From positions 18,980-82,979 of the forward strand of contig JAGNYI010000012.1 of NCBI GenBank assembly GCA_017985015.1: a DNA stretch of 64,000 nt. The letters are read 5' to 3'. This DNA comes from Giesbergeria sp. Its GTDB lineage: Bacteria > Pseudomonadota > Gammaproteobacteria > Burkholderiales > Burkholderiaceae_C. Position numbers and translations under genes: made by a program. The notes under the pieces were generated by a model. The model saw nothing but the letters and a program-made list of their open reading frames with translations, did not search any database and was not told the DNA's origin. This document shows positions 15,392 to 19,505 of this stretch, piece after piece. Numbering within the stretch: the first letter of the stretch is position 1; the number at the start of each line of letters is the position of its first letter.

Positions 15392-18241
15392 TCAGGCCGC
15401 GCTTGCCTGCGCCGGCGTGCCCTGCACCAGGCGGCGCAGCTCGGGCACGCAGGAGCCGCATTGCGTGCCACAGCGCAACTGGGCCTGCAGGGCGCTTAGC
15501 CGGGCTGCGGCGTCGCCCACCAGGCGCGTGAGCGCGTCCGCAATGGCGCCTTCGCTCACCCCGAGGCAGCTGCACACCTGGCGTGCCCCTGCTGCGGCGC
15601 CCAGGGTGCCGCGCGGCGGCTTGGCGCCGGGCGCCAGCAGCATGCGGCCATAGGGGTTGGTCGGCAGCTCGTGCTGGAGCACACCGGTGAGCCAGTGCTG
15701 CGCCTCGGTGTCGCCGGCCAGCAGCAGGGCGCCCAGGGTGTTGTGCGCTGCGCCGGGCACGAGGCGTGCAGCGCGCCGCTGGCCCCGGCGCCGGTCGGCG
15801 TAGCGCAGGGTGCCCTCGCTGGCCAGGCCCAGCAGCGCTTCGATGCGTTCGAGCAGGGCATCGGGCGCGGCGTAGTGCCCGGCGGCCGTGAGGCAGACGC
15901 CGGTGCGTGCGGGCGTGCCGGAAGTGGAGGGCGCTGCAAACAGTGTGCAGCTGGCGAAGGCGAACGCGTCCATCAGCCCGGCCAGCGCGGTGCGGGCGCG
16001 CAGCGCCTCGTCCTCGGGGAACCAGGCCATGGCGCAGAGCTGCCAGGGCAGGTCGACTTTGAGGATCTTGACGGCGGTGTGCTTGAGCGCGGGCTGCTGC
16101 GAGATGGGGCAGCGCACCTGCGTGGTAAGGGCATTCACCCCGGCCAGCGAGCGCCCGGCCGCCGACTGCCCGCCCAGCCATTCGCTGCCCCAGTGCATGG
16201 CGATGAAGGCCTGGCCGGGTGCTATTTCAGCGCTGGCGTGCGCTGGCAGCACGATGCTGGCGCGCGCGCTGGTGACGCAGGCGAGCGCACCCTCCTGCAG
16301 GCCCTGGCGCGCCATGTCGCCCGCATGCATTTGCACGCAGGGCGTGCCCGCGTGGCCCGAGAGGCGCGCCACGGTGCCGGTGCGGCTCATGCCGTGCCAC
16401 TGGTCGCGCAGTCGCCCGGTGGTCAGCAGAAAGGGGTAGCGCAGGCCCGGCGACTCGGCCAGGCCCTGGGCCGCCAGCACGGCAAAGCGCGCCCGGCCGT
16501 CGGGCGTGGGGAACACGCCGTCCTCGTACAGGCGCTTGCGCCCGTGCGTCGCCCCGTCTGGCAGGGGCCACTGCTGCGGGCCGGCGGCGTCCAGCCTGGC
16601 GTAGGAGAGGCCGGTGATGTCCAGATCGCGCCCGCGCGTGCTCTCGCGGTGCTCGTTCCAGATGGCCTCGGTCGCGGCTTCGGCGCTGGCCAGGTGGTCG
16701 GCGTAGGGGAACAGGGTGGGTGCGCCAGGGCGCAGGCGCTGCTCAAGGCGCTGCGCGAATTGCAGTGCGATCTGCCAGTCGTGCCGGGCCTCTCCCGCAG
16801 CGGGCACGGCACTGCGGACACGGGAGATGCAGCGCTCGCTGTTGGTCACCGTGCCGGTTTTTTCGCCCCAGGTGCTGGCGGGCAGGAGCAGGTCGGCATA
16901 GGCGGCGGTGGCGGTGTGGGCAAACGCCTCCTGCAAGACGACGAATTCGGCACGCTCCAGCGCGCGGCGCACCGCGCTCTGGTGGGGCAGGCTCTGCGCC
17001 GGGTTGGTGCAGGCGATCCACAGCGCACGGATTTCGCCATCGGCCGCGGCCTCGAACATCTCTACCGCCGTCTTGCCTGGCCGGGCGGGAACCTCGCTCA
17101 ATCCCCACAGCGCGGCCACTTCCGCACGGTGCTCCGGGTTGGCCATGTCGCGGTGGCCCGAGAGCAAATTCGACATGCCGCCGACCTCGCGCCCGCCCAT
17201 GGCGTTGGCCTGGCCGGTGAGTGAGAGCGGCCCGGCGCCGGGCTTGCCGATCTGCCCGGTGGCCAGGTGCAGGTGCACCAGCGCGGCGTTGTTGGCGGTG
17301 CCAGCGCTGCTCTGGTTCAGGCCTTGGCAGTACAGGCTGAGCGTGCGCCCGCGCGGCGCGGTGGTGTCGCCTACGCCGGCAAACCAGCGCGCCGCCTGCA
17401 CCAGGTCGGCCAGCGCAATGCCGCATTCGCGTGCCACGCGCTCGGGCGTGCAGGCGGCCAGTTGCGGCTGCAGTGCGGCAAAACCGCTGGTGTGCGCGGC
17501 GATGTAGTCGGTATCGAGCCAGGCCTGGCGCTGCATGAGGTGCAGCATGCCGGCCATGAGCACGGCGTCGCTGCCGGGCTGGATCTGCAGGAACAGGTCG
17601 GCGCAGGCGGCGGTGTCGGTGCGGCGCGGGTCGACCACGATGACCTTCATGTCCGGCCGTGCGGCGCGTGCGTCCTCGATGCGCCGGAACAGCACCGGGT
17701 GCGCCCAGGCGGTGTTGCTGCCGATGATGAACAGGCAGTCGGCGTGCTGCAGGTCGCCGTAGCAGGCCGGCGGCGCGTCGGCGCCCAGCGTGGCCTTGTA
17801 GCCGGCGGCGGCGCTGCTCATGCACAGGCGCGAGTTGGTGTCGATGTTGTTGGTGCCCACCAGGCCTTTGGCGAGCTTGTTGAAGACGTAATAGTCCTCG
17901 GTAAGCAATTGGCCCGAGACGTAAAAACCCACCGCATCCGGCCCGTGCGCGGCGATGGTGCCGGCGAAGCGGTTGGCGGCGAGGTCGAGCGCGCTGTCCC
18001 AGGCGATGGGTGCAGGCGCTTGGGTGCGCGTGGCACGCACCAGCGGCTGCAGCAAGCGCATCTGGCGGGTCACGCTGGGGCTGGCGCTCAGGTGCAGGGT
18101 GGCGCCTTTGGTGCACAGCCGCCCGAAATTGGCCGGGTGGTCGGGGTCGCCGCGCACGCCGGTGATGGCGTTGCCCTCGGTCTCGATGACCACGCCGCAG
18201 CCTACGCCGCAGTAGGGGCAGGTGGATTTGGTTTGTTGCAT
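15392..18241 (-). CDS. nasA: assimilatory nitrate reductase, catalytic subunit with C-terminal [2Fe-2S] domain
   Basis: 949 aa molybdoenzyme reducing nitrate to nitrite in the cytoplasm. The N-terminal [4Fe-4S] cysteines are C8, C11, C15 and C43 (CPYCGVGCG and RLCTKG). The Mo-bis-MGD domains follow, with typical blocks such as TNNIDTNSRLCMSSAAAGYK, NAMGGREVGGMSNLL and WGEKTGTVTNSERCISR. After residue ~880 a BFD-like [2Fe-2S] domain is fused (VCSCLGVSEGAI, CGTQCGSCVPEL), the usual long NasA form that takes electrons without a separate small ferredoxin. It follows nirD after a long non-coding palindromic block. The start MQQTKSTCPYC is the only sensible one. Confidence 0.96.
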   Translation of the reverse strand: MQQTKSTCPYCGVGCGVVIETEGNAITGVRGDPDHPANFGRLCTKGATLHLSASPSVTRQMRLLQPLVRATRTQAPAPIAWDSALDLAANRFAGTIAAHGPDAVGFYVSGQLLTEDYYVFNKLAKGLVGTNNIDTNSRLCMSSAAAGYKATLGADAPPACYGDLQHADCLFIIGSNTAWAHPVLFRRIEDARAARPDMKVIVVDPRRTDTAACADLFLQIQPGSDAVLMAGMLHLMQRQAWLDTDYIAAHTSGFAALQPQLAACTPERVARECGIALADLVQAARWFAGVGDTTAPRGRTLSLYCQGLNQSSAGTANNAALVHLHLATGQIGKPGAGPLSLTGQANAMGGREVGGMSNLLSGHRDMANPEHRAEVAALWGLSEVPARPGKTAVEMFEAAADGEIRALWIACTNPAQSLPHQSAVRRALERAEFVVLQEAFAHTATAAYADLLLPASTWGEKTGTVTNSERCISRVRSAVPAAGEARHDWQIALQFAQRLEQRLRPGAPTLFPYADHLASAEAATEAIWNEHRESTRGRDLDITGLSYARLDAAGPQQWPLPDGATHGRKRLYEDGVFPTPDGRARFAVLAAQGLAESPGLRYPFLLTTGRLRDQWHGMSRTGTVARLSGHAGTPCVQMHAGDMARQGLQEGALACVTSARASIVLPAHASAEIAPGQAFIAMHWGSEWLGGQSAAGRSLAGVNALTTQVRCPISQQPALKHTAVKILKVDLPWQLCAMAWFPEDEALRARTALAGLMDAFAFASCTLFAAPSTSGTPARTGVCLTAAGHYAAPDALLERIEALLGLASEGTLRYADRRRGQRRAARLVPGAAHNTLGALLLAGDTEAQHWLTGVLQHELPTNPYGRMLLAPGAKPPRGTLGAAAGARQVCSCLGVSEGAIADALTRLVGDAAARLSALQAQLRCGTQCGSCVPELRRLVQGTPAQASAA

Positions 18242-18393
18242 GGCGTGGGTTTGGGGTGTTTTTTGGTTCTATCGCTTATCTATAAAGCGCCGGTAGCTAT
18301 TGTTTTGGTAGCTTCGATTTCCCGCTGTCTGTTCGGGCTGAGCTTGTCGAAGCCGGGGCGTGCTTGTTTGAAAGGCGTGCCTTTGTTGAGGGT
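18242..18393. other. non-coding gap upstream of nasA
   Basis: Gap between the nasA start codon and the left arm of the large palindrome. It holds a dispersed-repeat copy (18259-18306) and otherwise only short unremarkable sequence. I see no convincing sigma-54 or sigma-70 promoter here, so nasA is probably read through from nirB. Confidence 0.5.
18259..18306 (-). repeat. dispersed 60-bp palindromic repeat, copy upstream of nasA
   Basis: Minus strand: ACAATAGCTACCGGCGCTTT, then ATAGATAAGCGATAGAACCA and an A-run, which fits the family. Confidence 0.7.
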
Positions 18394-19069
18394 GGAGGCC
18401 GGGAGTCGCCCGGCATGCGAGTAACTTTCTTTCGCTTCGCCGAAAGAAAGTCACCAAAGAAAGGGCGACCCTACTGCGCGCGTCCCTTCGCTGCGCTACG
18501 GGCAACCTGCGATGCTCGGTCAGGGTGTGCGCCGCAGAACTCACTGCGCGCTGCGCGCTCCGTTCAAACAACTGCGGCAAGTCAGTGCACGAAGTGCGTG
18601 TGTCCTGCGGCACACGCACGCACACCCTGCCCTGCGCTTCTCGGCACGCGCAGAAGGGACCCCGCAGCCGGACATCCATTCGGGCCATTGCTGCGCTCGG
18701 CCGCGCCTGCGCGGCGCGAGGCGCTTGCGCACGGAAGATCGGGCCGAGCGAAGCAAAGGCCCGTGTGGCTGTTCGGCTGTTTGGATGTTCGGCTGTCCAC
18801 CCCCTGCTGGCTGCGCCTGCGGCGGGGCAGTTGCGGGGTGAGCATGGGCGCCCGCGCGCCCATGCCTCGTCATCTGACTCGCCGTGGCTGTCCGAGCGGC
18901 GCGCGCCAGCGCAAAGCGAGTTCCACGGCGCACCCCGCAACCGCTCCGACGCAGGTTTGCCCCGTAGCGAAGCGATGGGGTCGCAGACTGGGGGTCGCCC
19001 TTTCTTTGGTGACTTTCTTTCGGCGAAGCGAAAGAAAGTTACTCGCATGCCGGGCGACTCCCGGCCTCC
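18394..19069. repeat. 676-bp nested inverted repeat, non-coding
   Basis: The ends are perfect 78-bp inverted copies, 18394-18471 and 18992-19069, starting GGAGGCCGGGAGTCGCCCGG. Each arm contains its own hairpin (CTTTCTTTCGC...GCGAAAGAAAG). Inside, further imperfect arms pair: CGCTACGGGCAACCTGCG near 18494 with its like near 18953; CGCTCGG/CCGAGCG around 18695-18750; and GCATGGGCG-CCCGCG-CGCCCATGC at 18843-18866. All six frames are interrupted or of nonsense composition, so no gene is called. It has no transposase and no obvious target duplication. It lies between nirD and nasA, which would otherwise be adjacent in the operon. Confidence 0.9.
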
Positions 19070-19111
19070 GCCCTGAAACGAAGCACATCTCGCCAACAAG
19101 ACAACCAGCAT

Positions 19112-19495
19112 TCAAGCAACCACCAATCGCCCCACCGGCCCCGCCACCGGCCGCGTCTCGGTGGTGGCGTGGCGCGCCAACTCATCGGCGTCGAGGAAGA
19201 CCTGGCCGTTTTCCACCTTCACCGCAAACTTCGGCGTGCACCCCTCATCGGGTGCGGCGGCCTGGCCGGTGCACAGGCCAATGGTCCAGTTGTGCAGCGG
19301 GCAGGCGACGCTGGTGCCAAAGACGATGCCTTGCGACAGCGGCCCGCCCTTGTGCGGGCAGGAGTCGAGCAGGGCAAAGATCTGGTCGTCGGCGCTGCGG
19401 AAGATGGCCACATCCAGGCCCTGCGCCCGCGCCACGCGGCGGGCGCCCAGGCGGGGAATGTCGTCCACACGGCAAATGGGGGTCCAAGTGGTCAT
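19112..19495 (-). CDS. nirD: nitrite reductase small subunit NirD
   Basis: 127 aa Rieske-like protein, partner of NirB in NADH-dependent reduction of nitrite to ammonium. Here both ligand pairs of a real Rieske [2Fe-2S] centre are present: C46-x-H48 in SCPHKGGPLSQG and C65-x-x-H68 in VACPLHNW. Many NirD proteins (for example that of E. coli) have lost these residues, so this one may bind a cluster. It lies 84 bases after nirB; the gap is mostly a dispersed repeat copy. The start is MTTWTPICRVDDIP. Confidence 0.94.
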   Translation of the reverse strand: MTTWTPICRVDDIPRLGARRVARAQGLDVAIFRSADDQIFALLDSCPHKGGPLSQGIVFGTSVACPLHNWTIGLCTGQAAAPDEGCTPKFAVKVENGQVFLDADELARHATTETRPVAGPVGRLVVA

Positions 19496-19505
19496 TGCTA
19501 TTCCT

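Follow-up and report, generated by a model that had tools for sequence, protein, structure and literature searches.

Structure of the element between nirD and nasA

The window, by which we mean the whole stretch of 64,000 nt of Giesbergeria sp. DNA that was analyzed, contains a 676-nt inverted repeat between nirD and a nasA-like gene. Upstream of this element lie nirD and nirB, which score over the cut-offs of TIGR02378 and TIGR02374, respectively, and downstream lies a gene for a nasA-like molybdopterin oxidoreductase with a BFD domain, whose scores with the nitrate reductase models of NCBIfam stay below cut-off. Since all three genes are on the minus strand, the order of transcription would be nirB, nirD, element, nasA. 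Near the left end of the element, at window positions 18332-18351, lies TTCGGGCTGAGCTTGTCGAA, probably a repeat that is common among bacteria of this family. The following parts of the element were distinguished:

18394..19069, no strand: whole element, 676 nt, with bounds as aligned among copies
18394..18471, plus strand: left inverted arm, fully complementary to the right arm; 96.9 bits with arm model R1, in whose building set it was included
18992..19069, minus strand: right inverted arm, perfect complement of the left arm; 93.2 bits with arm model R1, in whose building set it was included
18421..18454, plus strand: left-arm hairpin, 34 nt, with double changes in 7 of 12 helix pairs (32 arms)
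19009..19042, minus strand: right-arm hairpin, 34 nt, counterpart of the left-arm hairpin
18394..18702, plus strand: left half-unit, a module of about 310 nt, from the half-unit alignment and HMM
18742..19069, minus strand: right half-unit, which repeats the left half-unit in inverted and diverged form
18538..18570, plus strand: AACTC-hairpin-TTCAAACA motif of the left half
18889..18922, minus strand: AACTC-hairpin motif of the right half, as read on the minus strand
18594..18619, plus strand: inner hairpin with compensatory changes among copies
18842..18865, plus strand: inner hairpin GCATGGGCG...CGCCCATGC
18681..18763, plus strand: central hairpin linking the halves, in which 18681-18702 pairs with 18742-18763

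The preliminary description of this locus had proposed a 676-bp element with perfect 78-bp inverted ends, a hairpin inside each end and two particular inner arm pairs, and all of these were recovered. The complementarity of the ends (18394-18471 and 18992-19069) extends over exactly 78 nt, each end contains a 34-nt hairpin, the GCGCTCGG/CCGAGCG pair falls within the two strands of the central hairpin, and the GCATGGGCG...CGCCCATGC pair is present as well. The whole element is 72% identical to its own reverse complement, and in some other copies a weaker inverted similarity, judged by eye, reaches about 65 nt beyond the element bounds. The strong folding that had been proposed was also found: the predicted RNA fold of the plus strand has an energy of −506.4 kcal/mol, as compared to a mean of −319.97 (sd 5.25) in 20 dinucleotide shuffles (z = −35.5), and that of the other strand −509.9 kcal/mol.

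The element was said to contain no credible ORF, and our data agree with this. Several ORFs overlap it, and the four that were scanned (130, 183, 280 and 381 aa) have no match in Pfam, nor do those of 183 and 280 aa in NCBIfam. In addition, 352 of the 378 indel runs that separate 27 relatives from the window copy are not multiples of three. A coding function was rejected on the absence of family matches in the scanned ORFs together with the frame-breaking indels. A known RNA family was likewise rejected, as in positions 18000-19500 no match attained the gathering score of an Rfam family and the best ones were to microRNA models far below threshold. Between positions 18200 and 19200 there is one terminator-like site (1.4 in shuffles), and no promoter-like site was found.

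The junction of nirD and nasA, which had been regarded as part of an operon that should be continuous, is not uniform in relatives. Among the 13 nirD loci that were read, the element is present in two, namely the window and G007, where its arms are other than those of the window copy, and one locus (G024) contains a piece of about 30 nt that resembles the element end. In four loci nasA is close by and the element is lacking, and in six another coding sequence takes the place of nasA after nirD in the stretch read.

Copies in the genome and the genus

The element is a member of a family with many copies, as had been anticipated. The window's own genome contains seven full-length copies and several one-sided or partial ones, and 18 of the 25 other members of the genus have matches, two of these being single and weak. 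The arm model detected 7-22 arms per genome in six element-bearing members of the genus and no arm in five others (G002, G005, G006, G010 and G015), which fits with either loss or non-acquisition. Internal deletions differ among the copies. One copy in the window's own genome (L008, contig C33) has a 267-nt palindrome with inverted ends inside it (L008:444-710), and a one-sided copy in the same genome is immediately followed by an IS110-family transposase gene (L014:2011-3081; PF02371 and PF01548 over cut-off). The phage collection contained no match to the element, and two plasmid records match it in part, with no annotated feature beneath the match.

Conservation of base pairing

The RNAalifold structure of 28 full copies comprises 154 pairs, with 97.5% of the cells paired, as compared to 37-49% in slid controls. 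Both sides had changed in 56 of the 154 pairs (33.6 in shuffles), so that compensatory changes, which the preliminary description had proposed to look for in the inner stems, do occur. The alignment of 32 arms gave 16 pairs with 98.4% of the cells paired, double changes in 10 of the 16 (7.4 in shuffles) and a covariation of 0.439 versus 0.05-0.14 in slid controls. The covariation in full copies and in arms alike is in line with a conserved fold and shows that the hairpins of the element are kept. Compensatory changes of this kind can be produced by selection or by template-switch repair, the latter without selection. Neither of the findings that the preliminary description had named as pointing to a local duplication was made: the arm is not confined to this locus, and the pairing is conserved among copies.

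Module architecture

In each module of about 310 nt, the outer arm carries two hairpins and is followed by an AACTC-hairpin-CTCAAACA motif and additional hairpins, and the central hairpin is formed by the inner end. The other half of the element mirrors this arrangement. The AACTC-hairpin motif lies at a median distance of 145 nt from the element end. In 42 full copies it was found in both halves of 31 and in one half of 11, with none lacking it; the pattern was written after the copies had been seen, and it matches once in the rest of the window.

At least 118 stretches from named genomes, each of at most 8 kb, were selected by the inner-end motif. Among the 118 listed, at least 113 hold a module, with a single module in 42. 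Neighboring modules at most 3 kb apart in these listed stretches are mostly inverted (62 of 68 pairs, the other 6 being direct), and the inverted pairs face each other with their inner ends in 50 cases and with their outer ends in 12. The genera among the stretch titles listed include Acidovorax, Paracidovorax, Giesbergeria, Pseudorhodoferax, Ottowia, Variovorax, Ramlibacter and Vandammella.

Genomic setting of the copies

The copies adjoin genes, and they do so at 3′ ends more often than expected. By orientation calls from a small codon model, 27 of 47 copies lie between convergent genes, 11 between co-directional and 3 between divergent ones, with 6 not called. Counted as 22 independent sites, these are 13 convergent, 5 co-directional, 2 divergent, 1 mixed and 1 uncalled, and the proportion of convergent pairs (13 of 20 called sites) exceeds that among the gene pairs of the window (8 of 41; Fisher p about 0.001). 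In 41 of the 47 copies a distance of 7-234 nt separates the element from the closest called coding segment, according to rough gene calls. Copies that occupy the same site are on average more similar within the element (0.753, gaps counted) than in the adjacent 40 nt (0.638; shuffled 0.498), and the element was the better kept part in 22 of 27 same-site pairs, which are non-independent.

History of individual sites

Species differ as to whether a copy is present and which way round its interior lies. Comparison of flanks showed that many sites are occupied in several species and one also in another genus, which indicates that movement is slow or old. Empty sites, which the preliminary description had suggested searching for, were also seen. 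At site C62 none of 20 loci of other species has the element, so that the window genome alone is occupied among those compared (one of the loci, L307, ends at a contig end); both flanking genes were found in 11 of the 20, one of which has a flank that is 94.9% identical. Site C38 is occupied in two other species, and one species with both flanks lacks the element. No excision was seen. In four of eight empty sites that were written out, a different short palindrome fills the gap, from which it appears that repeats from more than one family accumulate at the same gene ends. By eye, a short palindrome of the ATTGGGGTC...GACCCCAAT type is present in the element-free loci L288, L291, L292 and L296 (C62) and L265 (C38). 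As several empty sites hold other inserts, no target-site duplication was readable.

In 9 of 38 same-site pairs, from three sites, the interior matches better when reversed, and this holds for all three scorings and for other bounds too. The reversal is clear-cut for L101/L102 (identity 0.93 versus 0.80), while at the other two sites the identities differ little, e.g. 0.83 versus 0.84. Two independent insertions at one site could also give rise to reversed interiors. Copies at different sites within one genome reach up to 0.97 identity over the aligned columns. When 42 copies were placed on a tree, 21 changes were needed to account for the site labels (in 200 shuffles, 29.3 on average and never below 26) and likewise 21 for the genome labels (25.6 on average, minimum 21). 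The tree thus carries a clear signal of site and a weak one of genome. Neither purely vertical nor purely concerted evolution by itself fits these signals.

Perfect arms of the window copy

The perfect 78-bp ends had been taken as a feature of the element as such, and proved to be peculiar to the window copy. With bounds wide enough to include both arms, the longest perfect inverted matches are 78 nt in the window copy, followed by 67, 55, 55, 53 (L107), 48 and 40 nt, and the match is 9-30 nt in the other 36 of the 43 copies. Perfect arms of at least 40 nt thus occur in seven copies at five sites. When arms were compared across different copies of the same genome, the longest match was 36 nt (n = 128), shorter than any of these, which makes it most likely that the window arms were made alike within their own copy, one arm probably having been copied from the other. 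A general homogenization of both arms in every copy was rejected, since two arms from one copy do not as a rule resemble each other more than arms taken from separate copies, and long identical arms are confined to a minority of the copies.

Nature of the element

We consider it likely that the element is a copy of a dispersed, non-coding, non-autonomous repeat composed of two inverted modules of about 310 nt. It is best read as a two-fold symmetric and very large repeat that resembles BIMEs and MITEs in kind and is moved by an enzyme in trans, and by kind it is grouped with extragenic palindromic repeats and MITEs. The number of copies, the conserved pairing and the presence or absence between species favor the non-autonomous mobile element that the preliminary description had already considered. 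The copies would owe their spread to a trans-acting enzyme, whose substrate may be hairpins of single-stranded DNA; no mobilizing enzyme for the element was found. Recombination between the two arms would turn the interior round, and replication or repair that templates one arm on the other would make the arms identical, which could explain the perfect 78-bp ends of the window copy. Transcripts of the nitrate operon would contain the element as a structured spacer of high stability, and this spacer may lower the expression of nasA or uncouple it from nirBD. Among the open-licence papers listed, we recognized none as describing this 676-nt element.

The element may yet have a role as a functional RNA, as was raised in the preliminary description. 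That it is an RNA or 3′-end element kept by selection, with its mobility being incidental, appears unlikely to us; an example would be a bidirectional transcription barrier or a protector of mRNA 3′ ends between convergent genes. Such a role would agree with the enrichment of sites between convergent genes, with a conserved structure that is about equally stable on both strands, and with the better conservation of the element than of the adjacent 40 nt, although the 27 same-site pairs behind this last comparison are not independent. It agrees less well with the variation among copies in presence, orientation and internal deletions, with the five members of the genus that have no arm at all, and with the single terminator-like site and lack of promoter-like sites in positions 18200-19200. 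Large ornate RNAs such as GOLLD, ROOL and OLE, as far as partial accounts of them go, resemble the element in their length of hundreds of nucleotides and their elaborate fold, but the element differs in being nearly strand-symmetric and dispersed, and in having no Rfam family at gathering score.

The element shares terminal inverted repeats, the lack of coding capacity and multiple copies with MITEs. The intergenic repeats R0 and R2 of Pseudomonas fluorescens SBW25, which the parts of that paper drawn on here propose as MITEs, measure 89 and 110 bp, occur in 612 and 516 copies and have ends like those of a resident insertion sequence (PMC2718517). According to the same parts, R0 and R2 are like the element intergenic and hairpin-forming, with inverted ends around a core (PMC2718517); the element exceeds them greatly in size, and in the loci read we met neither a parent insertion sequence nor any insertion sequence sharing the element ends. 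A classical MITE, i.e. an insertion sequence reduced by deletion, with arms of about 80 bp that the transposase of the parent recognizes, seems improbable, even though there are multiple copies and no gene, and although among the listed matches outside the family the arms are conserved and the interior differs. Conservation and symmetry extend to the interior within the genus, arms also occur singly, and no target duplication was read at the empty sites, several of which hold other inserts. To call the element a MITE with confidence would take both a parent insertion sequence and a target duplication. Moreover, no transposase was met between arm pairs in the loci read; the 3.1-kb pair in L344 encloses ORFs, one of which is PAAR-protein-like by eye.

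REPs, of 20-40 bp, are high-copy repeats according to the portion of the source consulted (PMC3733652). Like REPs and BIMEs, the element is extragenic, palindromic and non-coding with units in opposite orientation, and 22 of 26 genomes of the genus have a Y1_Tnp match, so that a giant REP/BIME moved by a resident RAYT (TnpA_REP-like) transposase could be envisaged. This is nonetheless very improbable. At about 310 nt the module is larger than a REP, and the 7-22 arms counted per genome in six species fall short of a high copy number. Element sequence, in the form of an arm, was found at 1 of 20 Y1_Tnp loci (L142). Y1_Tnp matches are also present in the element-free G002, G005, G006, G010 and G015, whereas G003 has no such match and yet 16 element matches. 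By eye, the RAYT genes of L136 and L142 are adjoined by a different repeat, around GGGGTC...GACCCC. The distribution of Y1_Tnp, the single locus with an arm and the different adjoining repeat speak against a resident RAYT as the mobilizer. Finally, that the repeat at nirD-nasA arose as an artefact of assembly or by local duplication, as the rarity of such long perfect arms in the family might suggest, is refuted with near certainty by the element at the same junction in G007 and the many copies elsewhere.

Taxonomic reach

With the element as query, matches were found in 137 of 399 genomes of the order, representing 76 of 159 genera; outside the family, the matches listed mostly cover just the arm of about 80 nt. 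In a sample of 398 genomes from the whole phylum, the arm covariance model matched 51, of which 11 belong to the family (the window's own genome included), 7 to the rest of the order and 28 to other orders of the class, the 5 matches outside the class being weak. Twenty distant regions were fetched, 14 of which (L329-L340, L343 and L344) had been chosen for having two nearby arms. Among the six chosen for a single arm (L341, L342 and L345-L348), an inverted partner was strong in two, weak in two and absent in two. The AACTC-hairpin motif is present in both halves of 7, one half of 1 and neither half of 3 of 11 elements of other genera; in four elements outside the order the corresponding numbers are 1, 1 and 2.

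We tentatively raise the possibility that the arms are the hallmark of a single ancient superfamily, spread over the class, of two-fold symmetric elements of about 450-700 bp, whose mirrored hairpin modules would be recognized by an enzyme or nucleoid protein and whose normal life cycle would consist of interior reversal and arm copying. These would then be a mobile or architectural kind of element that has so far escaped description. As regards its scope, the arm is widespread, and the mirrored motif was found outside the order in one of three genomes read for it. The fold kept by compensatory changes and the recurrence of the arm in distant genera suggest that a common enzyme or binding protein may exist. 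Long intergenic palindromes of this type are easily overlooked, and same-site copies that are reversed or have newly identical arms provide a natural record of how long palindromes are repaired and turned in bacterial chromosomes.

Similarity to the Beta-proteobacterial repeat element

The excerpts of Hot et al. 2011 used here describe the Beta-proteobacterial repeat element (BRE) as a mostly intergenic repeat of 75-91 bp (PMC3110155), with hosts including Bordetella, Delftia, Polaromonas, Acidovorax and others (PMC3110155). The size and hosts of BRE are near those of the element arm, and tandem arms occur here as well, but in these excerpts BRE figures as single or tandem repeats and not as a two-fold symmetric 676-bp element (PMC3110155). 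Going by these partial descriptions, the published BRE may be the same repeat as the element arm. The tandem arms, two in number and about 100 nt apart, are located at L229:6860-7048 and resemble BRE tandem arrays.
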